Of a stretch of 62,787 nt of DNA, positions 15,267-51,248 are shown one piece after another. A model generated the notes under the pieces. That model was not told the origin of the DNA and did no database searches. It saw only the letters and a program-made list of their open reading frames with translations. The translations under genes were made by a program, and so were the position numbers. The stretch lies in the IMG/VR virus record IMGVR_UViG_3300044714_000076, positions 1 to 62,787 of that record, one strand, 5' to 3'. The number at the start of each line of letters is the position of its first letter. The first letter of the stretch is position 1. The stretch comes from a virus.

Positions 15267-15499
15267 AGGCAAATGTTGTTCAATTCATGCGAGGAATATC
15301 TTGGATGGAAGAAGAATTGCTGCGGCTTAGGATGCAACAGACGCATGACGAGATCAGAAAAAATCTCAACACGGCTTTGTATGGTGACCGGGAAGGTCAG
15401 CCATTACCTAAGAAAACCGTTCGGGAAAAACTTTCCGATTTGAAATGGCGCATACAGGCGGCGTGGTTGGTACTGCGCGGTCGTGCTGATATTTGCTAG
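15263..15499 (+). CDS. Hypothetical helical protein
   Basis: This 78-residue protein starts at GTG 15263, overlapping the glycosyltransferase stop. It is charged and helical (WMEEELLRLRMQQTHDEIRK). No family recognised. Confidence 0.6.
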   Translation: MKANVVQFMRGISWMEEELLRLRMQQTHDEIRKNLNTALYGDREGQPLPKKTVREKLSDLKWRIQAAWLVLRGRADIC

Positions 15500-15507
15500 G
15501 AGTGAAG

Positions 15508-16512
15508 ATGAAAGTTCTAATAACCGGCGCGTGCGGCTTCATCGGTCGCCACTTCGTCAAGCGTTTGCTCGACGACGGCCACATCGTCACCGCCATCGAC
15601 AATATGTATAGCGGCCAAGAACTCTACGACTGGATGTTCAAGCCCAACGCCTACGATCCCAAGACGCGCTCCGTCCCCAACCTCCAGCTCATGATCGGTG
15701 ACTGCCGCTCTTTCTTCGCCTCAAGCGGCAACATATGGTCTGCCAACCGCTTCGATCTTGTGATCCATTGTGCCGCGATCGTCGGCGGTCGGGTCAAGAT
15801 CGAGGACGACCCGCTCGAAGTGGCGATCGACCTTGCGATCGACGCGGAATTCTTCCGCTGGGTCACGAGCAAAAAACCATACCCGAAAGTGGTATATTTT
15901 TCATCGTCCGCGGTATATCCGGCAGAGCTTCAGACTAAGGAGAAGCACGTTGCGTTGGCTGAGTCCTACGTGGATCTCAATCAGAATCGCTTTTCGAAGC
16001 CGGAAACCAGCTATGGCTGGTGCAAATTAAACGGCGAATATCTGGCGAAGATCGCGCATCATATGCACAAGCTTGAAGTTGCGATTTACCGGCCGTTTGG
16101 TGGCTACGGAGAGGACCAAGCTCTGACCTATCCGTTTCCTTCAATCATCAAACGTGTTCGCGACGGGGAAGATCCAATCATGATTTGGGGCAGCGGCGAA
16201 CAAGAAAGAGATTGGATTCACGTTGACGATATCGTGGAGGCGGTTTTACAGACTTATGATAAGCTCAGTGGTAAAGTGCTCAATCTTGGCACCGGCATTC
16301 CAACTTCATTCTTCGAATTTGCTGAAGAAGTGGTGCGCGCGTCTGGCATCTGCGCGGTAAGCGATCCAAGTATTCGCAACGATCCCCTCAAACCCGAAGG
16401 TGTTTTCAGCCGTGTCGCCGACATCCACGAGATGTCCAAGATTTACACGCCCAAAATCACCCTCGCCGAAGGCATCGAACGGGCACTTGACAGGGCCAAA
16501 CCGAAGGTGTAG
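15508..16512 (+). CDS. NAD(P)-dependent sugar epimerase/dehydratase
   Basis: This 334-residue extended short-chain dehydrogenase is of the nucleotide-sugar type. It shows the N-terminal glycine motif TGACGFIGRHF, the active-site SSSAVYP and Y-x3-K (YGWCK), and the substrate-side GSGEQERDWIHVDDIV, which resembles GDP-fucose synthase and GDP-mannose epimerase relatives. It would supply a modified NDP-sugar to the neighbouring transferases. AGGAG upstream sets the start at 15508. Exact substrate unknown. Confidence 0.85.
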   Translation: MKVLITGACGFIGRHFVKRLLDDGHIVTAIDNMYSGQELYDWMFKPNAYDPKTRSVPNLQLMIGDCRSFFASSGNIWSANRFDLVIHCAAIVGGRVKIEDDPLEVAIDLAIDAEFFRWVTSKKPYPKVVYFSSSAVYPAELQTKEKHVALAESYVDLNQNRFSKPETSYGWCKLNGEYLAKIAHHMHKLEVAIYRPFGGYGEDQALTYPFPSIIKRVRDGEDPIMIWGSGEQERDWIHVDDIVEAVLQTYDKLSGKVLNLGTGIPTSFFEFAEEVVRASGICAVSDPSIRNDPLKPEGVFSRVADIHEMSKIYTPKITLAEGIERALDRAKPKV

Positions 16513-16539: not shown

Positions 16540-16914
16540 GTGATCGTGGCCGACCTTGAACAGCAGGATTGCATCACTTGCGGCTGCATTTTCGGTGTGC
16601 CCGGGGGTTTTACTGCGCAGCGCCGGAAAGATAAAAAGACTTTTTATTGCCCGAATGGGCACACTATGTCGTATACCGAAAGTGAGGAAGATAAATTGCG
16701 CCGTGAGCGCGATCGGTTGACGCAACGCTTGGCTCAGAAGGACGATGAGATTAAGGATTTAGAGAATCGTCGGCGTGCAGCGTTCGGGCAGGTTACAAAA
16801 TTGCGCAAGCGAATTGGCAACGGCGTTTGTCCTTGCTGTACGCGGTCGTTTACGAACCTGCGCGAACATATCAAGACCAAGCACCCGGATTTTAAAGCGG
16901 AGGCCGTGGCATGA
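16540..16914 (+). CDS. Double zinc-finger hypothetical protein
   Basis: The protein has 124 residues. An N-terminal zinc site (CITCGCIF, then FYCPNGH) is followed by a coiled-coil stretch (about residues 45-85, RRERDRLTQRLAQKDDEIKD) and a C-terminal C2H2-like finger (CPCCTRSFTNLREHIKTKH). GTG 16540 is preferred, with GGGAGA 7 bases upstream. A TTG at 16513 is the alternative. It overlaps the recombinase start, so it may be its DNA-binding partner. Confidence 0.7.
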   Translation: MIVADLEQQDCITCGCIFGVPGGFTAQRRKDKKTFYCPNGHTMSYTESEEDKLRRERDRLTQRLAQKDDEIKDLENRRRAAFGQVTKLRKRIGNGVCPCCTRSFTNLREHIKTKHPDFKAEAVA

Positions 16915-17606
16915 TCTTCTGCTACGCACGAGTCTCCTCCATCGAGCAAGCCGCAGACGGCAACGCCTCGATCCCCGAGCAGTTGCGTAAGGGCAAGGCT
17001 CTTGCTCAGATGCGTGGCGTAGCCGGCAAGGACGTGATCACCTTCATCGATAAAGGTGTTAGCGGCTCCACACCCCTCGCCTTCCGCCCGCAAGGCAAGG
17101 AGATGCTGGAATCGGCCCAATCTGGCGATGTAATTTGCGCCGCCAAGATGGACCGCCTGTTTCGGTCGGCCATCGACGCGCTTCAGACCGCTGAGGAATT
17201 AAAGAAGCGAGGCGTTGAACTGGTCCTATTGGACATCGGAATTGACGCGGTGACCGGCAACGGCGTTGGCAAACTGTTCTTCTCGATTTTGGCGGTGATG
17301 GCCGAGTTCGAACGCGACCGAATCCGCGAACGAACCGAGGAAGGTCGGCGCGGCAAGCGCGCCCGCCGCGGCTTCATGGGCGGCGGCGTGCCGATCGGGT
17401 TCAAGGTTCAGGGCAAAGGCCGCGAGGCCCAGCTTGAGGAAGATGAGCGCGAGCAGGCGGCGATTGCCAAGGTGAAGGAACTGCTGGAAAGCAAGCACCA
17501 GCCTGGTCGTATTGGGCGGTACTTGACGAAATACTATCCAACGCGATCTGGAAAGCCTTGGCAATGCGTGCAAGTGCAGCGCTTGATAGCGCGGTTGGAG
17601 GCGTGA
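16911..17606 (+). CDS. Short serine recombinase (resolvase plus partial recombinase domain)
   Basis: The protein has 231 residues. The N-terminal catalytic domain has YARVSS (catalytic Ser9, Arg7) and AAKMDRLFRSAIDA (the conserved K-x-DRL-x-R block). An E helix region AVMAEFERDRIRERTEEGR follows. The rest (GGGVPIGFKV, GRIGRYLTKYYPTRSGKPW) resembles the start of the Recombinase domain of large serine recombinases, but the zinc-ribbon/coiled-coil half is missing. It could catalyse inversion, resolution or integration. No recombination site was identified by eye. Confidence 0.88.
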   Translation: MIFCYARVSSIEQAADGNASIPEQLRKGKALAQMRGVAGKDVITFIDKGVSGSTPLAFRPQGKEMLESAQSGDVICAAKMDRLFRSAIDALQTAEELKKRGVELVLLDIGIDAVTGNGVGKLFFSILAVMAEFERDRIRERTEEGRRGKRARRGFMGGGVPIGFKVQGKGREAQLEEDEREQAAIAKVKELLESKHQPGRIGRYLTKYYPTRSGKPWQCVQVQRLIARLEA

Positions 17607-28864: not shown

Positions 28865-29905
28865 ATGCCCCTTCCCGGTATCGGCGTCGCACCTGCCGCA
28901 GGTTCACTTTACTCTGAGTTAGCAAGTACTACACGCAGGGCTTTCGTCCCGCGTCTCTTTGTACAAATCTATTTTGGCTCGCCCACGCTTTTCTACATGA
29001 TGGGCAACGCCCAAAAAGCTGCGGGCGGCCTCAACCAAATCACCATACCGTTGCAAGGCGGATCGATGGTGCAAGGTCAATTTACCGGTTATGGCGGCGG
29101 CTTCAACTCACCGCAGATCATCCCGGCGATTCAGAACGGTCAATGGAATCTGGCGTACTGGGTCGTGCCGGTTCCGCTGCCCTTCGGCGAAACGATCATC
29201 CAGGCAACCGACCGCGAGATCAGCCTGCTCAAAGCCCGCATGAACGACGTTGCTGCGGTGACCAAGCAGAATTTCGCCAGCCTGCTGTTCTCCAACAACA
29301 CGGCGAACTCGCTTTACCCGAACAGCTTCTACGATGCCTTCGACAACGGCACCAACGTCCCGAATTACGGTGGCATCAATCGGAATGCGCAGGGCAACAC
29401 GGCCTTCCAGGGCCAGTACATCAACACCAACAACGCCGCGCTGTTCTCGTTCTCGTCCGGCTTCACGCGCCAGAATATGGCAACGATGCTGTCCTACATC
29501 ACCAACCAGGCCGGCGGCGAAGCGCCGACCTTTGTGGTCATGTCGCCCGGCGATTACGCGACGCTGAACCTGTCGTTCATCGGAACGGAAAACACCTACA
29601 TCGTCCCCGGCTCCACCTACACGATGGATACCGCGGTGCGGTCGAGCTTCCCGAACCTCGTTGTCTCGGGCATCCCGATCTTCCAGGATCACTTCTGTCC
29701 GACCAATCACGCCTACGCCGTCAACACCAAGTACACCGCGATGTACTTGTCCGAGGATGCCGCGTTCGATTTCAGCGGGTTCTACTCGCTGGTGCCCTTG
29801 GGGCAGATCGGTCAGCAAGGTGTCGTGGTCGTCGGCTACGATGTGGTGTCCGCGAAGTCGGTGTCGGGCGCGCACATCTACAATATCCAGAATAACCAGT
29901 TCTAA
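28865..29905 (+). CDS. Major capsid protein
   Basis: The protein has 346 residues. AGGAGTTAGG before ATG 28865 is a strong site, as expected of the most expressed gene. It follows the scaffold, is rich in Asn and aromatic residues, and lacks low-complexity repeats. It contains a helical spine-like stretch (ISLLKARMNDVAAVTKQNFA) followed by beta-rich sequence (SGFTRQNMATMLSYITNQAG). These features fit an HK97-fold shell subunit. No clear prohead protease motif is visible. Confidence 0.8.
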   Translation: MPLPGIGVAPAAGSLYSELASTTRRAFVPRLFVQIYFGSPTLFYMMGNAQKAAGGLNQITIPLQGGSMVQGQFTGYGGGFNSPQIIPAIQNGQWNLAYWVVPVPLPFGETIIQATDREISLLKARMNDVAAVTKQNFASLLFSNNTANSLYPNSFYDAFDNGTNVPNYGGINRNAQGNTAFQGQYINTNNAALFSFSSGFTRQNMATMLSYITNQAGGEAPTFVVMSPGDYATLNLSFIGTENTYIVPGSTYTMDTAVRSSFPNLVVSGIPIFQDHFCPTNHAYAVNTKYTAMYLSEDAAFDFSGFYSLVPLGQIGQQGVVVVGYDVVSAKSVSGAHIYNIQNNQF

Positions 29906-39357: not shown

Positions 39358-42303
39358 ATGGTTGATCTCGCCAACATAGGACCCGAAGGCGTCACCGCGG
39401 ATTTGGAGAAAGCACCTCCAGCCGTGACCGATGCCGATTCCTACGAGAAGATCGCCGCCGGCGCCGACTACCTCGATCCCAAGGGCAACAAGCGGACCAA
39501 GCCGTATCGCGTGAAGGACGCGGATGAGTACGCCGCGCTCCCCGAGGGCGTGCCGTACATCGATCCCGAAGGCAATTCGCGGGTCTCGCCGAAGTACGAG
39601 GACTTGGATTTCACCACCCAGACGCTCTACAACATGAGCGTGACCGATGCCGAACGCAAGAAAGCGCTGGAGCGCGGTTATCCTGGCAAGGTCAAGACCA
39701 ATAAGCAGACCGGCGAGATGTACGTCGATGAGGACGGCACCTTGCGCCGCTCTCGCGGCTATAACAAGTCGCCGATGTCCATGATTGCCTCTCAGGCGGC
39801 GCCGGTTCTTGGCTCGATTGCGGGCGAGGTCGGTGGCGGTATTGCAGGCGGCGTGGCTGGCTCCGTGGTGCCGTTTGCCGGAACTGCGGCGGGCGCCACA
39901 GGCGGGGCAATAGCCGGCGGCGCTGCCGGCGGCGCTGCGGGCCAGGGGTTCAATGACGCCATCATGGCGCTGGCCGGTGTGTACGACCGTACCGGAACCG
40001 AGGAAGCGGTTGAGCTGGGCATGGCCGGCTTGTTCGGTGGTGTCGGCACGGCTGCCGGGCGAGGCCTGGCTGCGGCAGCACCTGCCATCAAGGGCGCGGT
40101 CAAGAACGCACTGCCAAAGGCCGCTGCCGACTTCCTTGGCGCGACACCCGAAGGCGTGTCACAAGCCAGCGCGCTGCGCGAGCAAGGCACCATGGTTCCG
40201 CCTTCGGCTTGGGCCAAGGAAGCGCCGCACATCATCAATATCTCGGAGCGGTTCGACCCGGCATTTCGCACCCAGGACCCGCTTCTGCAATCAGCAACCG
40301 AGCATTATGAGACCAAGGGCAAGGATATTCTCACTGGGTTGGGCGCGGATACCGGTAAGATCGGCAAGCTGACTGATCCCGAGGCGGCAGTGTCTACCGA
40401 GCGCGCGGGTGAGGCTGTGTTGGGCCGCACGCGCGAGGAATTACGCAAGACGGATGAGGCGTTGCGCCAGGCACTCGAAGTCAAGCGCACGAACCTGGCT
40501 GGCTCGATGACGGAGCGTATTGCCGCGCAGGAGTCGCAAACCCGGCAGCTCGAAACGGCGGCGGCCGAGGCGCGCAAAGCGGCGCAAGGGGTGATCGATG
40601 CCGGGTTTCAGGAGATTGACAAGTCCAGCCAAGCCGCGATGGATGCCGTCAAGGCCGGGCACAACGGCGGAACTCTGTGGCAGCAGGTTGCCGAGAAAAT
40701 TCAGAAGGTGCGCGCCGGTATCATGGGCCGCGCCAACAAGATGTATTCCGAAGCGGACTCGCTGGCCGGCGGGTTGAAGCCGGACATTAGCGGCTTGCCG
40801 GAACGCGCACAACAGTTTCTCAACGAATTGCCCGAAGGGTTTGAGGGCAAATATCCCAGCATCGTCAAACAAATTCGTGATATGGCTGGAGAGATCGATG
40901 AGGAAGGTAAAGTCATCCGCGAGCCGGTTCAGCCGACATGGGCGCAGTTGCATAATTTGCGCTCGATCATGCGGCAGAATTATAATCGCCTCGATCTTAC
41001 GCCTGACGTGAAGCAGGGCACATTCAAGTTTTTCGCCAATCGCGTTGATGAAATTCTCAATGACGCGAACGCCGTGCCCGAGTTGAAGGCAGCGGCCAAG
41101 CAGCTCCGAGAGGCCGACAATTTCTATCGCAAGAACATGGGTGCGTTCAACGACAAGCGCATCCAGGCGGTTATGGACGGCCTCGACGCTGGTTTGCCTG
41201 CCGATCCCAAGGTGTTGTTCGATACCATCGTCAAGGAAGGTCGCTCGGATCTGACCAAGAAAGTGTCCGAGATGGTCGGCCCCAACCTATGGGCCGGGGT
41301 CAAGGCGGCTGACGTTCGCGAGATGCTGGAGCAATCCAAGTCGGTCACAGGCGAGATCGACGGTAAGAGGTTCGTATCGCAGGTGCTGGAACGCTATCGT
41401 AGTGGGATGCTCGAAGCCGTTCACGGCAAGGAGGTCACGCAAAAGTTGCTTCAACAGGCGCAGAACATTGAAGCGCTGGCCGGTCGCCTGAACATCCCGG
41501 TTCGTCCTGGCGATACGATTCGCGATGTAATTGAGACCGCGCGTACCGCGGGCGAGGCTGCCAAAGCTGCGGCCAAACGGGACCCGTTGGGCACCTTGAC
41601 CCGCGAGATGAAGGGTATCGAGCGGCAGCTTGCGGCGACCAAGCAGGCCGCGCGCAAGAATCTCAAGACCAACAACGCACTTGATTTTCTCTATGATGAG
41701 TCGGTTGGCGCGTCCGAGGCTGTGGACAAGATTCTCGGTAGCGAGGACTTGATTATCGCTGCCGCTTCGAAGTTTGGGCCGACTTCGCCCGAGTTCAACT
41801 TGTTGCGTCAGACCTGGGCGCAGAAGCTGCTCACCGGCACGTTAACGCCGAGCAGTAAACTCGCGAAAGTTTCCGAGGAAGTGCAGCGTATCATGTTTCC
41901 TGGTGTCAGCCTCGACCAGATGAAAACGCTGGCGAAGGAGATGGACTTTCTCATGGGTACGCGCGGTGGGCTTGGCTCCAGCATGGCCGGCGGCCTCGCG
42001 GCGATGTCCAAGGTCGAGCACCCGTGGTCGAGTATTCCGCTGGGCAAAGCGGCGGGTAAGCTTATTCCCGGCTTCGACGCTGCCGGCCGCTTCATGCTCG
42101 GCAAGTATTTCAAGTTCGTCACCGAGCTGGCCAACAATCCGGCGTTCTTGCGCTGGGTCGAGAAAGGGCTTAAAGGCGACGATCAGGCGCGCGAGATGGT
42201 CAAGGAATTAGTGCAACAGCGCATGAAGATTGGCGGCGCGATGGGCGCGGGTGTCGGCGAGTCGCAATTCCAGACGCCGAACCAGAACGTGATGCTGCAA
42301 TGA
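39358..42303 (+). CDS. Large internal virion (ejection) protein C
   Basis: This 981-residue protein is the second largest gap-free gene product of the tail module by length and lies where podoviruses encode their largest core protein. It has a glycine-zipper hydrophobic segment (about residues 145-195, GEVGGGIAGGVAGSVVPFAG). Long helical regions follow (TERAGEAVLGRTREELRKTD, ETAAAEARKAAQGVIDAGFQ). No lytic transglycosylase motif was found. It overlaps the HNH gene by 4 bases. Confidence 0.65.
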   Translation: MVDLANIGPEGVTADLEKAPPAVTDADSYEKIAAGADYLDPKGNKRTKPYRVKDADEYAALPEGVPYIDPEGNSRVSPKYEDLDFTTQTLYNMSVTDAERKKALERGYPGKVKTNKQTGEMYVDEDGTLRRSRGYNKSPMSMIASQAAPVLGSIAGEVGGGIAGGVAGSVVPFAGTAAGATGGAIAGGAAGGAAGQGFNDAIMALAGVYDRTGTEEAVELGMAGLFGGVGTAAGRGLAAAAPAIKGAVKNALPKAAADFLGATPEGVSQASALREQGTMVPPSAWAKEAPHIINISERFDPAFRTQDPLLQSATEHYETKGKDILTGLGADTGKIGKLTDPEAAVSTERAGEAVLGRTREELRKTDEALRQALEVKRTNLAGSMTERIAAQESQTRQLETAAAEARKAAQGVIDAGFQEIDKSSQAAMDAVKAGHNGGTLWQQVAEKIQKVRAGIMGRANKMYSEADSLAGGLKPDISGLPERAQQFLNELPEGFEGKYPSIVKQIRDMAGEIDEEGKVIREPVQPTWAQLHNLRSIMRQNYNRLDLTPDVKQGTFKFFANRVDEILNDANAVPELKAAAKQLREADNFYRKNMGAFNDKRIQAVMDGLDAGLPADPKVLFDTIVKEGRSDLTKKVSEMVGPNLWAGVKAADVREMLEQSKSVTGEIDGKRFVSQVLERYRSGMLEAVHGKEVTQKLLQQAQNIEALAGRLNIPVRPGDTIRDVIETARTAGEAAKAAAKRDPLGTLTREMKGIERQLAATKQAARKNLKTNNALDFLYDESVGASEAVDKILGSEDLIIAAASKFGPTSPEFNLLRQTWAQKLLTGTLTPSSKLAKVSEEVQRIMFPGVSLDQMKTLAKEMDFLMGTRGGLGSSMAGGLAAMSKVEHPWSSIPLGKAAGKLIPGFDAAGRFMLGKYFKFVTELANNPAFLRWVEKGLKGDDQAREMVKELVQQRMKIGGAMGAGVGESQFQTPNQNVMLQ

Positions 42304-42842
42304 CCACCCTCGCCGACATCGAGAAACTGGCGCAAAAGACTGGGAAGAATACAGTAACATTTGCCGAATTGCGAACTCTTTTGCGGTACAATCCTGAAAC
42401 TGGAGAATGGTGGTATCGAGCTGCGGTTAATAACAGATTTAAGCCCGGTGTTCGAGCAGGGTCTACCGGAGCATACGGCTATTGGATGATCGCAATTGAC
42501 GGACGTAAATATAAATCGTCACGATTAGCTTTCTTATATATGCGCGGCAGATGGCCCGAGCAGATGATGGATCACATCGATTGCAACCGCGCAAACGATA
42601 AATGGTCAAATCTTCGAGAAGCCACGCCAACACAAAATAGCGCTAACAGGCGTAAAGAGCGTCGCAATAAAAGTGGTTACAAAGGCGTCTCTTGGTTTTC
42701 TGCTGCTAAAAAATGGGTCGCTCATATAGGTGATGGTAATACCCAGAAAAATTTAGGTTACTTTGACGATCCTGCGGAAGCGCACGCCGCCTATTTCAAA
42801 GCTGCTAAACAGCGCTTCGGCGAATACGCGAGGGCCGGATGA
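42300..42842 (+). CDS. HNH endonuclease with AP2 DNA-binding domain
   Basis: The protein has 180 residues. The HNH core is RWPEQMMDHIDCNRANDKWSNLR at about residues 83-105. It is followed by NSANRRKERRNKSGYKGVSW and an AP2-type domain (KKWVAHIGDGNTQKNLGYFD). This is a typical mobile homing endonuclease lodged in a virion operon. Its first 14 residues (MTTLADIEKLAQKT) resemble the start of the next gene (MSAIKDIEDLLRKT), hinting at how it inserted. Confidence 0.9.
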   Translation: MTTLADIEKLAQKTGKNTVTFAELRTLLRYNPETGEWWYRAAVNNRFKPGVRAGSTGAYGYWMIAIDGRKYKSSRLAFLYMRGRWPEQMMDHIDCNRANDKWSNLREATPTQNSANRRKERRNKSGYKGVSWFSAAKKWVAHIGDGNTQKNLGYFDDPAEAHAAYFKAAKQRFGEYARAG

Positions 42843-43090
42843 GCGCAATCAAGGACATCGAAGATTTGCTACGTAAAACCGCTCAACAAGCGATACTTCC
42901 CGATACATCGATTGAAAATCGAATAGACGCCCTTCGCGTGATGGGCAGTTACTATACCGCGCTGAAGAAAGCCGCCGGCCAGGAGCCTCCCGATCCGGGG
43001 GGCGATCCGACCATGGACGATATGCGTTCGCAAATCGAGGAGTCAGGGAATGGCAGAGCCGTTCAAACTCGAAGTCGTTCCCGAAACTGA
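42839..43090 (+). CDS. Small hypothetical protein
   Basis: The protein has 83 residues: helical N-terminus (MSAIKDIEDLLRKTAQQAIL, RIDALRVMGSYYTALKKAAG) and a polar, basic C-terminus. It is coupled to the HNH gene and overlaps the membrane gene by 41 bases. The helical start shared with the HNH protein suggests it was the original neighbour of the large core-protein gene. Confidence 0.6.
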   Translation: MSAIKDIEDLLRKTAQQAILPDTSIENRIDALRVMGSYYTALKKAAGQEPPDPGGDPTMDDMRSQIEESGNGRAVQTRSRSRN

Positions 43091-43340
43091 TCCTCCTACG
43101 CAAGATGCTTCGGCGGACGTAGCCCGCTCGGATGCCACTACGGCCATGTTCATGATGGCGCTTGGCGCGTTGTCGAAGCGTGCTTTGGTCGCTCTTGCCT
43201 CAATGTTCTCGCTGCTTACCGCTGGCAGTGCCTTCTGGCTCTGGTTCCTCACTCCCAAGCCCGACGTTTATCAGATCGTCTCGCTGACGATCTATTCTAT
43301 CTTCATCCTCGCGCTCAATTGGCTGGTGAGGACGCGATGA
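43050..43340 (+). CDS. Two-helix membrane protein (holin-like)
   Basis: The protein has 96 residues: an acidic soluble N-terminus of about 40 residues, then two transmembrane helices (ALVALASMFSLLTAGSAFWL and YQIVSLTIYSIFILALNWLV). GTCAGGGA is upstream. Holin-like topology, but it lies at the start of the exported fibre cluster rather than beside the lysozyme. Confidence 0.65.
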   Translation: MAEPFKLEVVPETDPPTQDASADVARSDATTAMFMMALGALSKRALVALASMFSLLTAGSAFWLWFLTPKPDVYQIVSLTIYSIFILALNWLVRTR

Positions 43341-44515
43341 TCAGGGTTCTGATTTTTCTTGCTGGGCTGCTGGCACTTATTCCGACACAAGCGCAAGCGC
43401 AAGCTCCCGTTCTTGTCTATTGCGATACCGGGGTAAGCGGCGCAAATCGCTACATCCCCTGCAATACGACTTACCCTCTTGCTGTTTCCGCGTCAGTTAC
43501 CGCGTCTATTTCCGGTTTTACCGCTACATCCACTGGGACGCCCATTTCGGTTACAACTGGCGGGGTTACTGGTACACTTCCAAGCGGCACGGTTGTCGTC
43601 GCAACAAACGCCGGGGCGACCAATACTGCTTATTGCGCGCTTGGTGGGTCTGCTACCACTAGCTCGCAACCAATTTCTCCCGGCGGGTGGTTTGCGTTCA
43701 CGGTCGGCGTATCAACACAGTTAACTTGCATTACCTCAACTAGCACCACGACCGTTAACATGACCGGCGGCGCAGGATTGCCAACTGGAACGGGTGGGGG
43801 AGGCAGTGGAGGGTCTGGAGGCGCCGTCACTATCGCTTCTGCCGGCGTAGCCAGCGGGGCTTACGCTTCTGGCTCGATCGCTTCCGGCGCCATCGTTAGT
43901 GGTGCCGATGTCACGGAAGGCACCACTGCGGAAACCACGGTTTATGCGGGCTCCGGCGGTTGTACGGTCGTTGCATGCCTCAAGGGTATTTATTCGGGCG
44001 TGACCGGAGCGATTCCTGCGGGCACAGCACTTATCGGAAAAGTCGGTATTGATCAGACAACACCGGGGACGACCAACGGCGTACAGGTCAATGCCGCGCT
44101 TCCGGCAGGTTCAAATGTTATTGGCGGCGTGACTGTAAGCGCGCAGGCCGATCCTTGTTTTGCGAGCGCCAAGACTAATCTTGCCATCAACGGCAATAGT
44201 ACAAGTTCGACACAGCTAATCGCGCTTTCTGGTAGCACGACAATCTACATTTGTTCGCTATCGTTGATCGCCGCCGGTGCAACTACGGTTGCGTTTACGA
44301 CCGGAACAGGAACTGCGTGCGTGACAAATAATGCGGCTGTTATCGGCTCGACCACGGCAAATATTGCCAACAGCATTTCGCTGGCGGCTAATGGCGGTCT
44401 TACGCTGGGTAGTGGGGTGGGCACCATTGCCAAGGGAGTCGCATCAAGCGAATTCTGCATGATACTTGGCAGCTCAGTCTACGTCGCGGGCAACCTCACC
44501 TACGTCCAACAGTAG
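43337..44515 (+). CDS. Secreted Gly/Thr/Ser-rich tail-region protein
   Basis: The protein has 392 residues. MIRVLIFLAGLLALIPTQAQ then AQAPVLVYC is a classic Sec signal peptide with AQA cleavage sites. The mature part is beta-rich, with cysteines (YCALGG, LTCITS, ADPCFAS, FCMIL) and a glycine linker near residue 155 (GTGGGGSGGSGG). It resembles fibre-like adhesins of phage tail clusters. ATG 43337 overlaps the previous stop. A signal peptide on a virion-region gene is unusual. Confidence 0.7.
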   Translation: MIRVLIFLAGLLALIPTQAQAQAPVLVYCDTGVSGANRYIPCNTTYPLAVSASVTASISGFTATSTGTPISVTTGGVTGTLPSGTVVVATNAGATNTAYCALGGSATTSSQPISPGGWFAFTVGVSTQLTCITSTSTTTVNMTGGAGLPTGTGGGGSGGSGGAVTIASAGVASGAYASGSIASGAIVSGADVTEGTTAETTVYAGSGGCTVVACLKGIYSGVTGAIPAGTALIGKVGIDQTTPGTTNGVQVNAALPAGSNVIGGVTVSAQADPCFASAKTNLAINGNSTSSTQLIALSGSTTIYICSLSLIAAGATTVAFTTGTGTACVTNNAAVIGSTTANIANSISLAANGGLTLGSGVGTIAKGVASSEFCMILGSSVYVAGNLTYVQQ

Positions 44516-44519
44516 CGTC

Positions 44520-45464
44520 ATGAAGCGGATTATCTGCACATACATCGCGGTTTGTGCGCTGTTTGTTGCGGCTTGGCAGTCCTTTGCCCAGGTGCCTATG
44601 ACCGGCGCTGGACTGCCGAAGCCAGCAGTGAGCGCGAGTTATCAAGGTCCTGGCGACCTTTCCAACCTCGGAACTTGGACGGCATGGGGTAGCTGTGCGC
44701 GGGCCTGGAACGCGGCATACGCCGCCGCGCAAAGTCCGCTTTGCGATCTTGTTGACACCTCAACCGGGGTAGCAACATGCACGCTGAGCGTTGGAACGAA
44801 CGGCTTTGCCAATGTGTCGTCGGCGGTGTGCGTGAGCAATACCGTCAGCGTAACAACGTTCTGCACGGTCACTCATACCGGGTGCAGCGTAACCAAGGTT
44901 TACGATCAGAGTGGCAGCAGCAACCACTTCACCCAAGCCACGCTTGGGAACATGCCAACGCTTACGCTAAGTGCGCTCAACAGTTTGCCGGGACTGACGT
45001 TTGCGGCCGGTTCGATGCAGATCAATACCGGATCAATCACGCAAGCTGTGCCGTTTTCAATATCATCTGTCTACGAGCGAACCGGAGGATTTACCACACA
45101 GACCGGTGTGGTTAACCCACAAAATGCGACCACGGCCGGATGCGGCCCGTATAGCACGGCAGCGACTATTTATGTTGGTGCGGTGACGGGGATTGCGGCA
45201 TCCGATAGTGCCTATCACGCGCTGCAATGTGTCAACCAGAATACAGGCGGCACTGTCGTTTCTGTTGTCGATGGGACAACTTCGACCGGGACGGCCGGGG
45301 CAACAGGTTTTGTGGCTACGCCCGCGCGCATGGCGCGCGGCACGGGCGGTTCTCTGACAGGCATCATCATGGAACTTGGTATTTGGTCTGGTGCTTTTAC
45401 ATCCACCGAATATGGTGCGCTCAACACCAACCAGCACAGCGCGACCAATGGCTACAATTTTTAA
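44520..45464 (+). CDS. Secreted lectin-like protein (arabinofuranosidase B-like fold)
   Basis: The protein has 314 residues. The signal peptide is MKRIICTYIAVCALFVAAWQ then SFAQVP. The mature part shows ARAWNAAYAAAQSPLCDLVD, a cysteine-flanked beta stretch and VTKVYDQSGSSNHFTQAT. This arrangement resembles the ConA-like catalytic domain family of alpha-L-arabinofuranosidase B, often used as a sugar-binding module in phage tails. Catalytic residues were not verified. Likely glycan recognition. Confidence 0.65.
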   Translation: MKRIICTYIAVCALFVAAWQSFAQVPMTGAGLPKPAVSASYQGPGDLSNLGTWTAWGSCARAWNAAYAAAQSPLCDLVDTSTGVATCTLSVGTNGFANVSSAVCVSNTVSVTTFCTVTHTGCSVTKVYDQSGSSNHFTQATLGNMPTLTLSALNSLPGLTFAAGSMQINTGSITQAVPFSISSVYERTGGFTTQTGVVNPQNATTAGCGPYSTAATIYVGAVTGIAASDSAYHALQCVNQNTGGTVVSVVDGTTSTGTAGATGFVATPARMARGTGGSLTGIIMELGIWSGAFTSTEYGALNTNQHSATNGYNF

Positions 45465-46755
45465 GCGGCTGGTTGTTGCGCTCATCGCAATAATTTGTCT
45501 GTCGAGCGACAGCGGCGCTTTTTGGCACGGCGCTCCTGTTGGTCTTATTGGCACACGAGCCAAGGTGGACGGCAATAAGAGCGGCGGCATTACCAAGGCG
45601 ATGTTCCGCAGTGCCTTCTATTTGCCGAACGGCAGCACAACAATACAGTTTCTAGAAGGCTGCTTTTATGTGGCCTCTGGTGTAGAAACAGGGCCAGGTT
45701 CCAGTTGCGTTATCACTGAAAGCGTCGAATACAACGGAACTTGCACCCCAGTAAAGTTCTCTGGGTCATCAACCGGCACAATACCAAACAATGGCACACT
45801 GTTGAGCGACCCGGTTACCCTATCTGCGCCCGCTGGTGCTCTCGCCTTTCGTCGTCAATACCAAACAAACTCATCCGGGGTTACTTATCAGTGGGATAAC
45901 TCTGTAAATTTTATCGATACGTCGCTGGGGGATGCAAGTGTCACGTCTAGCCCAACTGATCAAACGGTTGCATGTGGAGCACTGACCGATAGCGGAACCA
46001 TTGGGATTCATGCGCCGCTGGCGATTATTGGCCCCTTAAATCAGCCCGGCGTTTGTGTTGTAGGCGATAGCATCGCGTATGGTTCACAAGGGACGTTTGA
46101 CGCCACAGGCGATATCGGGATTATTGAGCCGTCTTTAGGAACAGGTTTTGCTTGGACCAATATATCAAGCAGTGGAGATCAGGCTGTAGCTTTTGTTGCG
46201 GGACACTCAAATCGGTCGCTCGTGTTTCCTTATTGCTCCACAGCTATAATTGAATATGGCCGCAACGATATTTACGCTTCGCCGTTCGATACGGCGGCAC
46301 AACTTGAAACCAACTTGACCACAATTTATGGCTACTTTGGATCAAACACCAAGACAATTATCGAAACAACTTTAATTCCCGACACCCCGTCATCGACAGA
46401 TGAGTGGGAGACAACTGCAAATCAGTCTACCCAAGCGCCATATGAAGGTTATCGGCAAAGTTTTAATTCTGCTTTGCGCGCCGGGACGTTCGGCCCGAGC
46501 GGCGGCTATTTCGATACTGCCAGTGTGATCGGCACGCCGTCACCGAATTACCAGTTTTGGATCGTCAACGGGACGCCGTATTATTGTACTTACCCGCAAA
46601 GCAGCTTTGCTGGCGTTCACCCGAGCCCAACTTGCTATGGGATTGTTGCTAGTTCCGGCATCATCGATACAACCCGGATTCAATGGTTGCTAAACCGCGA
46701 CCTAGATCCGGCATCGAATGACAATAGCCCAGCGTTTCTACGAAAGGCAGCTTAA
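45448..46755 (+). CDS. Secreted SGNH/GDSL-type hydrolase (spike-like)
   Basis: The protein has 435 residues. An N-terminal hydrophobic signal (IFKRLVVALIAIICLSSDSG) precedes a beta-rich ~190 residues and an SGNH hydrolase domain: VVGDSIAYG (Ser208), IIEYGRNDIYA (Asn273) and AGVHPSP (His391). The usual Asp three residues before the His is Ala388, so activity needs checking. Such domains deacetylate surface polysaccharide. It overlaps the preceding gene by 17 bases. Confidence 0.75.
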   Translation: MATIFKRLVVALIAIICLSSDSGAFWHGAPVGLIGTRAKVDGNKSGGITKAMFRSAFYLPNGSTTIQFLEGCFYVASGVETGPGSSCVITESVEYNGTCTPVKFSGSSTGTIPNNGTLLSDPVTLSAPAGALAFRRQYQTNSSGVTYQWDNSVNFIDTSLGDASVTSSPTDQTVACGALTDSGTIGIHAPLAIIGPLNQPGVCVVGDSIAYGSQGTFDATGDIGIIEPSLGTGFAWTNISSSGDQAVAFVAGHSNRSLVFPYCSTAIIEYGRNDIYASPFDTAAQLETNLTTIYGYFGSNTKTIIETTLIPDTPSSTDEWETTANQSTQAPYEGYRQSFNSALRAGTFGPSGGYFDTASVIGTPSPNYQFWIVNGTPYYCTYPQSSFAGVHPSPTCYGIVASSGIIDTTRIQWLLNRDLDPASNDNSPAFLRKAA

Positions 46756-46764
46756 AAATGCAGT

Positions 46765-46791
46765 TTTACCTGGAACTTTTCATGCTATACT
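46765..46791 (+). promoter_or_regulatory. Candidate extended -10 promoter before fibre genes
   Basis: TTTACC (46765-46770), 15 bases, then the extended -10 TGCTATACT (46783-46791). It lies just after the SGNH gene and about 40 bases before the ATG at 46829, so fibre genes may have their own start. Confidence 0.45.
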
Positions 46792-46828
46792 GCACGCCTT
46801 CGGCAGTCGTTTTAGCGTGGTTTTTGCG

Positions 46829-47323
46829 ATGACCAGCGGACAACCAATTCTTCAGTCGGGAAGCGTGACGCCCGGACATTTATGGAGCGTGACGACGGAC
46901 GGCGTGGCGCAAGATTCGGGCGTCAGCTTCAACAACACGCAAGCTATTTTTCAATCAACCATTACCAACGTCAACTTCAACTCGGCCAATACCGACAACC
47001 AGGTCTTGATCAATTTACCGGTTGGGTTTACGCGATGGCGGATGCAAAATATTTATTTGTCCGGCGCATCAGGAACGTTGACAACAGCAACATGCGGGCT
47101 GTTTACCCAACCAGCAGCAGGTGGCGTTGCTATTGTCACAAGTGGATCGGCTATCAATGTAAATACCAGCTCGATAGACACTAACAACAACGGGCAAGTA
47201 TTTACAATAAATAACCAGAATACTTTGTTTTATTCAGACACGGCTATTTATTTTCGCGTTCAAAACCCGCAAGGAAATGCTGCGACAGGAAACATAACGG
47301 TTGATTATGTTGTTCTTCCTTAA
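46829..47323 (+). CDS. Tail-fibre-like protein without signal peptide
   Basis: The protein has 164 residues, beta-rich and Asn/Thr-rich. The N-terminus (GQPILQSGSVTPGHLWSVTT then DGVAQDSG) is nearly identical in pattern to the mature start of the next protein (GQPIKQSGNVAPTHAWCVTT). This indicates a shared attachment module. ATG 46829 follows the promoter. An upstream in-frame start would overlap the SGNH gene. Probably a trimeric fibre or fibre-tip protein. Confidence 0.65.
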   Translation: MTSGQPILQSGSVTPGHLWSVTTDGVAQDSGVSFNNTQAIFQSTITNVNFNSANTDNQVLINLPVGFTRWRMQNIYLSGASGTLTTATCGLFTQPAAGGVAIVTSGSAINVNTSSIDTNNNGQVFTINNQNTLFYSDTAIYFRVQNPQGNAATGNITVDYVVLP

Positions 47324-49313
47324 AATTTACTTGACGTGGCTTGCAATCTGCCTGCCGGCCCTGGCGCAAACCGGACAGCCGATCAAGCAATCGGGCAACG
47401 TGGCGCCTACACACGCATGGTGCGTCACGACCAACGGAATCGCGCAAGATTGCGGCACCGCAGCTATTCCCTTTCTCACCTCGATTGGCGCCGTCTACAA
47501 CGGTCCCTCGATCTGTGCCTGGAGCGCCTTGTCCACGTCGGGAGCGGCGCAGGAGTTGTGTCTGGGAGCGACGACGGCGGGAGGTGCCGAAATCACTGTG
47601 CAAAACGTTGGATCTGCTTCTGCCCTTCCGCTTTTGTTGAATCTTAACGGCACCATCTACCAATTTCCATTCTCGACTTCGGGCGTAATTGGTCCTTCCA
47701 GTTCTATGGTTGGCGATATTGCAGAGTGGAATAACACGTCCGGCACCTTGCTAAAGGATGTTACGCCGACAGCGATGATTGATCAGCTTTGTGCCACAAA
47801 CGGCGATCTTTTGGTTCGACTAACCGGCACTTGGCAATGCCAAGCAACAGGAACAAGTGGTCACGTCGTTCCGTTCCTTGATGGCGCTAATACATGGTCA
47901 GCCACGCAGACTTTTGCGGATGGCGGTGCGTGGTCCAGTTCTGGAATTTCTGGATTATTGTCGCTGGCGATAACTGGTGGAACACTGTCTGCTGGAGCTA
48001 GTGCGCTCGCAGTAACTGTAACCCAACCGGCTTCTCCAGCAACAAAACAGGAAGCCGTTAGCATAGCCGTTACAGGTGCAGGATCAGCCAACCAAGTAAA
48101 CGATGCCTTTGCGGTAGCATATAATGCTGGTTACACAGGTGCAAACAGAAGTATTGCAGCTGATGTAGATAATTTGAACGCCGGAACCGCAGCCACCGTC
48201 GTTCCAGCTTCTTCTCTTAATAATAGCCGTGGTAATATGGGAATTGCCTCGGCTGCACTTGGATCCACCACGACCGGCTACAACTTTGGTATTAATGGTT
48301 TTGCAGGAGGCGGTTTAACAAATGTCGGCGGATCATTTCTTTCTCAAAGCGCAAATAATAATAATTCCGGCGCCAACATAGCGGTGGTTGGCAGTGCGCT
48401 TAACAACGGAACTGGTTCTCCAGCATATCAAATTGGCGGCTGGTTTTCTCTTAACCAAACAACCACTCCGTCTGCTTCGGCGGCATTAATAGCTGATAAC
48501 GCTTCGCAAAGTAATCCTGTAGCCCTTTTTCAAGTTGCCGGGACGACCAAAGTCGAAGTTGATGCAAGTGGTAATTTGACCGCACCAGCATCCAGCACTC
48601 TTACAATAGTCGCACCAAGTAGCGGGAATATAGCAATAAATCTTGGCTCGGATGCTACCGGCGACCTCTATTACCGTAATTCTAGCGGCAATTTTACCCG
48701 CCTGCCAATTGGCACGACAAACCAGCAATTGGCCGTATCCGGTGGACTCCCGGCGTGGACAGCCAGCACCAATTCCGTGGCGTATCTTTGCACGATCACC
48801 GCCAACAACTCGGCATCTCTCAATAACGCTTCGCCGACTTCGGGCAGTTGTCCGCTCAACAACACCTACACATCCTACCAGCTAATCTTCCAGAACATCA
48901 TCCCGGCAACGGACGAGAAAATTCTGGAATTGCAAGTCCATTCTGCCAATGGCGGCGCATCATATAAAACGACAGGGTATATTACATCGGAAAATTTTTG
49001 CGCCAATAGCACTTGCGCTGGTGGCAATCCGACGGTGTATATTCCACTCACTTATCCGTCTGACGCCAATGCGGCGGCTTTGCATAACGCTGCGCCAGGA
49101 TTCAGCGGTACAGTCGTTATCATGAACCCGTCAGTATCAGGTCTAATCAGCATAAGCACGAATAGCGCCGGCTACCTTGACGGTGGGGGGCTTGCCGGTA
49201 CAACGAGCACTTTCGGCTACTGGAATACAGCCGCTGCCGTTGACGGCTTCCAAGTCCTGATGGACTCTGGTAATATCACCTCCGGTTCGATCCTCGTATA
49301 TGGAATTCAATGA
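47307..49313 (+). CDS. Long secreted tail fibre
   Basis: The protein has 668 residues. The signal-like start MLFFLKIYLTWLAICLPALA then QTGQPIKQSG precedes a long fibre. The middle and C-terminal part include the common fibre motif TGDLYYRNSSGNFTRLPIGT followed by TNQQLAVSGGLPAW, and a C-terminal globular domain with YTSYQLIFQNIIPATDEKIL. Receptor binding is the likely role. ATG 47307 overlaps the previous gene by 17 bases. A TTG two codons earlier is an alternative. Confidence 0.75.
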   Translation: MLFFLKIYLTWLAICLPALAQTGQPIKQSGNVAPTHAWCVTTNGIAQDCGTAAIPFLTSIGAVYNGPSICAWSALSTSGAAQELCLGATTAGGAEITVQNVGSASALPLLLNLNGTIYQFPFSTSGVIGPSSSMVGDIAEWNNTSGTLLKDVTPTAMIDQLCATNGDLLVRLTGTWQCQATGTSGHVVPFLDGANTWSATQTFADGGAWSSSGISGLLSLAITGGTLSAGASALAVTVTQPASPATKQEAVSIAVTGAGSANQVNDAFAVAYNAGYTGANRSIAADVDNLNAGTAATVVPASSLNNSRGNMGIASAALGSTTTGYNFGINGFAGGGLTNVGGSFLSQSANNNNSGANIAVVGSALNNGTGSPAYQIGGWFSLNQTTTPSASAALIADNASQSNPVALFQVAGTTKVEVDASGNLTAPASSTLTIVAPSSGNIAINLGSDATGDLYYRNSSGNFTRLPIGTTNQQLAVSGGLPAWTASTNSVAYLCTITANNSASLNNASPTSGSCPLNNTYTSYQLIFQNIIPATDEKILELQVHSANGGASYKTTGYITSENFCANSTCAGGNPTVYIPLTYPSDANAAALHNAAPGFSGTVVIMNPSVSGLISISTNSAGYLDGGGLAGTTSTFGYWNTAAAVDGFQVLMDSGNITSGSILVYGIQ

Positions 49314-49314
49314 C

Positions 49315-49887
49315 ATGACCGACCGCTTCCCAATCTGCCTGCCGTTCACATTGCAGCAAGAGTGCAATGTCTATACCGGCACCGCGGCCGACTGGTCCAA
49401 TCCCCGTAACTTCGACGACGACCCGCACGATCCTGGCGGTGAAACTCAATGTGGCATCACCGGCAGCGAATATGATCTGTGGCTGCGGTTGCAAGGATTG
49501 CCGCAACTCGATGTGCGCAAGATTACGCAGATGCAGGGCGAGGCTATCTATCAAGGCTCATACTGGAATCCGAATTGCGCCAAGTGCCCGGCCGGTGTCG
49601 ATTTGTGCGTATTCGATGAGAACGTGAACGCAGGTCCGCGCACGTCCACTATTCTGCTACAACGCGCCTTGGGCATTACCGCAGATGGCATATGGGGACC
49701 GGCGACTGACAAGGCTGTGGCGGCCATCGCCAACCCCGCAGCGGTCGTCAACGCCTTCACGGCTGAGCGAGAGGCTTATTATCGCTCGCTCTCGACGTTC
49801 AAATACTTCGGCACCGATTGGATTCGGCGGTCGCAAGAAATCGATGCGGAATCCCTAAAGATGGCAACAGGAGCAACCAATGCCTAA
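49315..49887 (+). CDS. GH108-type N-acetylmuramidase (endolysin)
   Basis: The protein has 190 residues. DPHDPGGETQCGITGSEYDL is the DPGG-T-GIT signature of glycoside hydrolase family 108. The expected catalytic Glu is probably E16 (LQQECNVYT), with a longer than usual gap to DPGG. The C-terminal DENVNAGPRTSTILLQRALG and DGIWGPATDKAV is the peptidoglycan-binding module of this family. It hydrolyses cell-wall glycan at lysis. No signal peptide is seen, so it needs a holin, presumably the next gene. Confidence 0.88.
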   Translation: MTDRFPICLPFTLQQECNVYTGTAADWSNPRNFDDDPHDPGGETQCGITGSEYDLWLRLQGLPQLDVRKITQMQGEAIYQGSYWNPNCAKCPAGVDLCVFDENVNAGPRTSTILLQRALGITADGIWGPATDKAVAAIANPAAVVNAFTAEREAYYRSLSTFKYFGTDWIRRSQEIDAESLKMATGATNA

Positions 49888-50495: not shown

Positions 50496-51248
50496 ATGCG
50501 TAACTTCTTTCTTTCTAGTACCGCGCTCGTCGCGCTGGCAATGCCGGCCATGGCTGCGGATATGCCGGTCAAGGCCCCCCCGCTCCAGCCTACCACAGCC
50601 TATCCCTATACGACTTCGGGCATTTACTGGGGCCTGACTGCCTTTGCTTCGGACACGACCTTCAACGTTAATGCTCCGGGCTCCAATACTGGGGACGTGT
50701 CGGCGATCGGCGGTTCTATTGGCGTCCTACTCGGCTGGTCAACGCCGATCAATGGCGGCGCTCAGTTTGTTCGGATCGAGGGATCAGCAGCAGCGCAAAA
50801 CCTTAACGGGACGGCATCGCAGACCGCTGGTATCCTTTCGATGAAGGGGCCGTGGCGAGTGGAAGGCGTGGCTGAGATTGGGATGCCCTGTGCGAACATC
50901 GTAGCCTATCTGCCAGCGAATCTCGGCAGCCTGTTGCCGACGCTCCCTGCGCTTCCCACGGGTCTCGTAGCAACGAACTGTCATGCGTATATCGGCGGCG
51001 GGGCCGCGGGCGAGGACATCAGCGCCAATCTCACCCCCGTCGGATCGCAGGGTTCCGAATGGTCCGGCGCTGGCGTCGTCAAGACCGGCCAGATTTGGCA
51101 GTTGGCAAATGGCTATGCGGTCGAGACGTGGATCGAATATGAAAGCAATGGGCGCTCGATTGGCCTCAATTCCGGCGGCCCGATGTTCACGTCGTCAATC
51201 CAGGGACAGACCCACAAGATCACGACAGGCGTTAACTTCGACTTCTAG
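50496..51248 (+). CDS. Phage-encoded outer-membrane beta-barrel protein
   Basis: The protein has 250 residues. The signal peptide MRNFFLSSTALVALAMPAMA is followed by ADMPVKAPPLQPTTAYPYTT, the start typical of Rhizobiales outer-membrane proteins. The mature chain alternates strands (SGIYWGLTAFASDTTFNV, GAQFVRIEGSAAAQ, YAVETWIEYESNGRS) and ends in KITTGVNFDF, with the terminal Phe used by the barrel-assembly machinery. CAGGAGAACACC sets the start. It probably enters the host outer membrane, where it could alter phage receptors (superinfection exclusion) or help lysis. Confidence 0.8.
   Translation: MRNFFLSSTALVALAMPAMAADMPVKAPPLQPTTAYPYTTSGIYWGLTAFASDTTFNVNAPGSNTGDVSAIGGSIGVLLGWSTPINGGAQFVRIEGSAAAQNLNGTASQTAGILSMKGPWRVEGVAEIGMPCANIVAYLPANLGSLLPTLPALPTGLVATNCHAYIGGGAAGEDISANLTPVGSQGSEWSGAGVVKTGQIWQLANGYAVETWIEYESNGRSIGLNSGGPMFTSSIQGQTHKITTGVNFDF

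Follow-up and report, generated by a model that had tools for sequence, protein, structure and literature searches.

Predicted Sec-exported fibre proteins with even cysteine numbers in the late region of a 62.8-kb virus record

The usual account of tailed phages places their whole assembly, that of the fibres included, in the cytoplasm, and in the T7-like phages the tail fibre gene comes after the genes for the internal virion proteins and ahead of those for lysis. An adsorption protein that is exported by the Sec pathway, disulphide-bonded and receptor-binding is known from the filamentous phages, viz. pIII. No published description of tail fibres that are Sec-exported and disulphide-bonded was found in searches of the open full-text literature. 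The present work deals with a cluster of fibre-type genes, four of which carry predicted signal peptides (SPs), in the IMG/VR virus record IMGVR_UViG_3300044714_000076 (62,787 nt; this whole stretch is referred to below as the window, and its genes by their start positions). In this record the terminase gene is at 22354 and the capsid gene at 28865, and tail or internal-virion-like genes extend to 42303; they are followed by the fibre cluster, a GH108 endolysin gene (49300) and then a holin-like gene (49880). The cluster is therefore positioned between the internal virion and the lysis genes, in the same slot as the tail fibre gene of T7-like phages. As judged from sequence, Sec export and disulphide bonding of these fibres are well supported, and the further proposal, that receptor-binding fibres are Sec-exported, oxidised in the periplasm and docked on virions after lysis, has in our estimation about an even chance of being correct. 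The features of the cluster are as follows (lengths in amino acids, aa; Cys, cysteine).

43337 to 44515, + strand: first cluster gene, with SP, 392 aa (SP codons 43337–43399; 10 Cys in the mature protein)
44520 to 45464, + strand: lectin/GH54-like protein with SP, 314 aa (SP codons 44520–44588; 8 Cys mature)
45448 to 46755, + strand: SGNH hydrolase with SP, 435 aa (SP about 45448–45516; 8 Cys mature)
46829 to 47323, + strand: short paralogue without SP, 164 aa, with the anchor motif GQPILQSGSVTPGHLWSVTTDGVAQDSG at its N-terminus and a jelly-roll domain; 1 Cys
47307 to 49313, + strand: long fibre with SP, 668 aa (SP codons 47307–47366; 10 Cys mature)
47367 to 47456, + strand: N-terminal anchor motif QTGQPIKQSGNVAPTHAWCVTTNGIAQDCG of 47307, which SP cleavage would expose
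47367 to 47756, + strand: anchor domain of 47307, directly after the SP
about 48759 to 49310, + strand: C-terminal tip domain of 47307 (PHROG 14820, 2.7e-16)

Predicted signal peptides and cysteine numbers

The ATG starts of 43337, 44520, 45448, and 47307 are correct, a full-length frame opening at each, and all four products (4/4) passed a tripartite SP rule of our own, which considers the charge of the n-region, a 9-residue hydrophobic core and small residues at positions −3 and −1. The predicted SPs are MIRVLIFLAGLLALIPTQAQA for 43337 (cleaved before QAP), MKRIICTYIAVCALFVAAWQSFA for 44520 (before QVP), MATIFKRLVVALIAIICLSSDSG for 45448 (before AFW, the site being uncertain by a few residues) and MLFFLKIYLTWLAICLPALA for 47307 (before QTG). 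In the late region the rule was passed by six of the 28 genes, viz. the four fibre genes, the outer membrane protein (OMP) gene 50496 and 51314, which encodes a membrane-anchored protein; the pass rate was 1.1% for shuffled N-termini, and 14 of 438 arbitrary ATG frames also passed. When the N-terminus of each gene was itself shuffled, its score was reached 27, 6, 92, and 215 times per 5000 for 43337, 44520, 45448, and 47307, respectively. Judged alone, the SP of 47307 is the weakest of the four, and its call is upheld because 14 further homologues of its anchor domain bear an SP. Internal in-frame starts that would skip the SP were scattered weak codons, none of them conserved, and on these grounds a second, cytoplasmic form of these proteins was rejected. 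The first-pass annotation of the window, made from its sequence alone, had reported signal peptides on these genes and had regarded them as unusual for fibre-type proteins, and both statements are borne out here. It had also described four genes in a row; the SP-bearing genes are as it described, but the row consists of five genes, with the SP-less 46829–47323 in between.

The cysteine content, which that annotation passed over, as it did 46829 and the breadth of recurrence, provides evidence of export independent of the SP calls. In the mature forms of the four window fibres the counts are all even (10, 8, 8, and 10), and in a set of 53 SP fibres the mature count was even in 50 (binomial p 2.8e-12 under random parity), the full-length counts of the same proteins being even in 34. 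Where an odd number of Cys lies inside the SP, the mature count was even in 17 of 18 fibres. The exceptions with odd mature counts are L004:7392 (17 Cys), L006:7614 (21), and L115:4389 (1), the L numbers here and below denoting loci in other phages. L004:7392 and L006:7614, which are large SP fibres and the main exceptions, have in common a Cys-containing segment, SATGSGNCLSSGNACTLATAC. A first curated set gave even counts in 41 of 43 proteins (36/38 after clustering); it left out some SP genes, including the exception L006:7614, and these are added in the set of 53. In an automatic set from the same loci, limited for SP proteins to those with 150 residues or more and for SP-less proteins to those with at least two Cys, the count was even in 38 of 41 and in 48 of 98, respectively. 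Since even mature counts are what intramolecular disulphides predict, these results lend indirect support to SP removal. The cysteines appear to be even in number and to be gained or lost in pairs, as in disulphide-bonded extracytoplasmic proteins.

Coupling of signal peptides with cysteine pairs among relatives

In the anchor domain, a Cys pair is present in all 15 SP members, and the sole SP-less orthologue, from L109, has Gly/Gly instead; the anchor genes of L109 and L112 are syntenic, occupying the same place between homologous neighbours. In 13 of the 15 SP members this pair (I-C...L-C) falls in identical alignment columns, and L114 and L115 have a pair there with another spacing. A second anchor pair (W-C...QD-C) is complete in L098, L101, L102, L103, and the window, the rest lacking it as a pair, and the paralogue 46829 has Ser at both sites of this second pair. 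Additionally, a C...[WY]xPC pair is present shortly after the SP in 43337 as well as in L003, L098, L108, and L115. In the family of the tip domain, the SP members contain 4–21 Cys, compared to 0–5, mostly 0–2, in those lacking an SP.

For the Collar family, 80 viral loci were obtained whose products begin like a canonical tail fibre, and five of these have an SP; together with L008 this makes six SP members. Exactly four Cys are present in all six, and the 64 complete SP-less members have from 0 to 4, mostly 0–1, with none of them having a Cys in any of the columns where the SP members do. If relatedness is ignored, there is a chance of about 2e-7 that the eight members with four Cys would include all six SP members. 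The cleavage site has TAKA before it and AFWQWSKTA after it, the mature start being otherwise ACYQWSRTS, as against MSFWQWSKTA at the start of the SP-less members, and no start codon lies between the SP and the anchor. In these sequences the SP forms a clean extension of an otherwise canonical tail fibre, and its cleavage would regenerate the SP-less N-terminus. In the Collar tree the SP label needs two to three changes, gains or losses, on long branches whose bootstrap support is unsettled. It forms part of the docking proposal, and is put forward with the same even confidence, that fibre genes of the ordinary cytoplasmic kind acquired an export signal along with paired cysteines in several phage lineages.

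The anchor motif itself is shared with the SP-less gene of the cluster, as the N-terminus of 46829, GQPILQSGSVTPGHLWSVTTDGVAQDSG, matches the residues following the SP of 47307, QTGQPIKQSGNVAPTHAWCVTTNGIAQDCG. An AlphaFold model of 46829 shows a jelly roll (mean predicted local distance difference test score, pLDDT, 78) after a low-confidence motif. Its nearest solved folds are phage capsid cement proteins, viz. that of Pam1 (7eel, chain 7eel_H; Z 8.0, 3.1 angstrom over 107 residues) and that of KHP40 (Z 7.8), with unrelated jelly rolls scoring close behind. The protein may be a partner with the same anchor that stays in the cytoplasm and is bound to the virion. An SP-like stretch is present in a neighbouring frame just upstream of 46829, and the idea that this is a gene with a disrupted SP was rejected because many relatives have kept the SP-less form of 160–164 aa.

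Scanning for the anchor motif yielded 18 loci. Many of them have in common a pair of often overlapping genes, encoding an SP-less motif protein of about 160–164 aa and then a long SP fibre with the same motif right after its SP. One SP-less motif protein, L111:4280-5974, is 564 aa in length with 11 Cys, the usual paralogue having about 160 aa. The motif also matched, with E about 1, a gene of Salmonella Chi-like phages that has recombination and methylase genes as neighbours, and this match was judged to be due to chance. The capsid protein of the window was found in 14 of 15 contigs checked, with 67–95% identity; the clade that carries it looks uncultured, since its only matches among phage records are two that are metagenome-derived, at about 34%. 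SP fibres also occur in phages in which this capsid was not detected (L004, L006, L008, L015, L024, L066, and the Collar group), this negative coming from a search without its own positive control, though the same query matched 14 records elsewhere. The uncultured phage L015 from Manatee Spring (MW202444.1) encodes a protein of 1253 aa (L015:5326-9087) with a strong SP, MRKILLVLTLLFATIPALA, and 4 Cys, which has a short segment in common with 47307.

Possible roles of the exported proteins

In four relatives of the window, most late structural genes were matched over nearly their full length (capsid 76–95%), and 43337, 44520, 45448, and 47307 were absent or partly matched in most of them. By this comparison, hypervariability sets the SP genes apart in a late region that is otherwise conserved, and such mosaic variability is typical of host-range genes. 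The tip domain of 47307 is also found without an SP near tail-fibre genes in Pelagibacter phages, and the SP fibre of L008 has the Pfam Collar domain (PF07484) and weak homology to the T4 short tail fibre.

In the mechanism that we propose, the SP genes would encode receptor-binding fibres and fibre-borne enzymes, each of which would be made with a cleavable Sec SP and exported to the host periplasm, to fold there with intramolecular disulphides, presumably by the host Dsb system. Cleavage would leave at the N-terminus an anchor motif like the one with which the SP-less paralogues begin. Virions would be assembled in the cytoplasm without these fibres, and upon lysis by endolysin and holin the fibres, by then oxidised, would meet the virions and dock via the anchor. 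The dependence on Dsb and the docking after lysis are steps that we infer. As lysis frees the cytoplasm and periplasm alike, the gain from export would lie either in a role in the envelope ahead of lysis or in oxidative folding, and of these the cysteines favour oxidative folding. If this mechanism is correct, part of the virion is built outside the cytoplasm in a widespread group of tailed phages, whose fibres are attached to the finished particles only at lysis, a view for and against which we consider the balance to be roughly equal.

Export and oxidation fit equally well with a role away from the virion, in which the proteins, at the surface of the infected cell or in its periplasm, would mask receptors or serve as decoys; they could bind or strip the receptor glycan against superinfection, or coat lysis debris so that progeny are not trapped. 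The SGNH hydrolase and the partly GH54-like protein could trim surface glycans, hypervariability would also suit a receptor-matching decoy, and an exported beta-barrel is encoded nearby, as Lom is in lambda (PMC12309495). However, the anchor motif is retained right after the SP, and the Collar members keep a canonical tail-fibre N-terminus. The SP gene of L008 shows homology, across the entire mature part, with a Bradyrhizobium phage protein annotated as tail fibre; the late region yielded no other recognisable fibre, and the cell surface is out of reach of Sec alone. Such a role is possible but, in our view, doubtful. Both surface remodelling or decoy release and assembly onto virions after lysis had been suggested in the first-pass annotation; the latter is favoured here, though unproven, because of the anchor after the SP, the clean addition of the SP to a canonical Collar tail fibre and the hypervariability of the SP genes, and the former is less favoured. 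A single exported pool could also serve both purposes, docking on virions as well as masking receptors or clearing surface glycan around lysis. This would draw on the evidence for both readings, and no conserved internal start is present for a separate cytoplasmic form, but it is less economical and seems rather unlikely.

The function of the SPs is a sequence prediction, and the hydrophobic N-termini could instead be uncleaved virion or membrane anchors on proteins that stay reduced; this is very improbable in view of the AxA-type sites, often with Gln at +1, the Cys counts that turn even once the SP is removed, and the SP-less homologues that begin exactly at the cleavage point. We give just as little credence to the proteins being morons, i.e., host-derived exported surface proteins unrelated to fibres. 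Bacterial exoproteins also combine SPs with lectin or hydrolase domains, and the nearby OMP 50496 looks host-like. Nevertheless, this explanation is already contradicted for the Collar and tip families, by SP members with the Collar domain and weak T4 short-tail-fibre homology and by the occurrence of the tip domain in SP-less Pelagibacter phage proteins whose genes adjoin tail-fibre genes, and 84,980 prokaryote species genomes, scanned twice, gave no match.

Several observations weigh against docking on virions or against the evidence on which it draws. The SP-less 46829 could be the actual virion component, with the exported proteins being non-virion, and it is possible that an SP-less receptor-binding protein is encoded elsewhere in the late region, e.g., by 36425, which is also partly variable (coverage 45–51% in three relatives). 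The SP calls depend on our own rule, curated cleavage sites were partly placed by eye, and the homologues used in the SP and Cys counts are not independent. The AlphaFold model of the anchor domain (pLDDT 62.7) is too poor for Cys–Cys distances, and neither a host nor a prophage was found when the tip and anchor alignments were used in the two genome scans.

The determinants of host range appear here to travel by way of the periplasm and to acquire disulphides. If the fibres end on virions, the morphogenesis of tailed phages would include an extracytoplasmic step, fibres could be shared among the virions from one cell, and their stabilisation by disulphides may suit harsh environments; if the proteins stay on the cell, they would constitute a widespread, fast-evolving exported system against adsorption. 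In either case, the cysteine-parity test provides a cheap means to separate truly exported phage proteins from false SP calls.

Individual genes, neighbours and comparison with known systems

The labels fibre-like, lectin-like and SGNH hydrolase, given earlier to the first three genes, fared differently. The start of 43337 overlaps the preceding stop codon (ATGA); no family was matched by its product in PHROG and Pfam searches, leaving its fibre identity without support from homology. Both 43337 and 44520 were unmatched among 50,697 phage records. For 44520 the likeness is partial, its match to the GH54 catalytic domain of Pfam covering 47 residues at 23.6 bits, under the curated cut-off of 25; a relative, L003:6576 (46% over 90%), likewise bears an SP. 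Sequence searches of the PDB with 44520 and with the tip of 47307 gave no match, and the patterns made for 44520 and 45448 yielded no relative among viral contigs. The SGNH label is retained for 45448, which matches PHROG 8480 at 7.6e-29 (Pfam models score below cut-off) and has the GDS and GxND blocks VVGDSIAYG and YGRNDIY. The Asp that usually precedes the catalytic His seems to be missing from it (FAGVHPSP).

The following genes flank the cluster.

43050 to 43340, + strand: small hydrophobic protein, immediately 5' of, and overlapping, the first fibre gene
49300 to 49887, + strand: GH108 endolysin, 3' of the fibre genes
50496 to 51248, + strand: outer-membrane beta-barrel-like protein with SP, near the fibre cluster

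The 43050 protein is conserved in four relatives (47–61%). The mature 50496 protein starts with ADMPVKAPP; counterparts are close to lysis genes in several relatives, with an identity of just 28–33%, and SP proteins resembling its mature N-terminus are found in L098, L099, L100, L114, and L115. The first-pass annotation had grouped this beta-barrel with the fibres, and although it does recur in relatives, nothing beyond proximity ties it to them. Between the large internal-virion-like gene and the cluster is an HNH-endonuclease-like gene (42300–42842), unmatched in the compared stretches of four relatives. In the remainder of the window, the 15493–16512 protein, in which MKVLITGACGFIGRHFVKRLLDDG stands close to the N-terminus, is reminiscent of an NAD-dependent sugar epimerase/dehydratase, its neighbours 12249 and 13938 may be glycosyltransferase-like, and the 16911–17606 protein, which begins MIFCYARVSSIEQAADGNASIPEQLRKG, resembles a serine recombinase.

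Described phage proteins include SP-less counterparts for several of these families. The SP fibre L008:5355 aligns over its whole mature length, the N-terminal anchor domain included, with the Collar fibres of Bradyrhizobium phage ppBeUSDA76-2 (39% identity) and Microcystis phage Mae-JY35 (36% identity), which have no SP and one Cys, as opposed to four Cys in the versions with an SP. Short fibre-like proteins of the Pelagibacter phages HTVC019P and HTVC034P have the same C-terminal tip domain as 47307, but here the tip is a separate short protein with no SP and 1–3 Cys. Similarly, the SGNH proteins of Rhizobium phage RHph_Y25 and Mesorhizobium phage Lo5R7ANS are homologous to 45448 over most of its length (29–32% identity) but lack an SP, starting with MSLMLGLSLSLNN and MGILMPVLRRTLW, respectively. 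The filamentous phage protein pIII is in principle a functional analogue, and no homology to the window fibres is claimed; unlike them, it is membrane-anchored and joins an extruding filamentous virion, with no tail and no lysis. Lom of lambda is an exported beta-barrel encoded near the tail-fibre genes, a late-region phage protein with an SP (PMC12309495), and 50496 is of this general kind; Lom is, however, no fibre, and it leaves the SP-bearing fibres unexplained. It is the nearest exported late protein noted in the literature.

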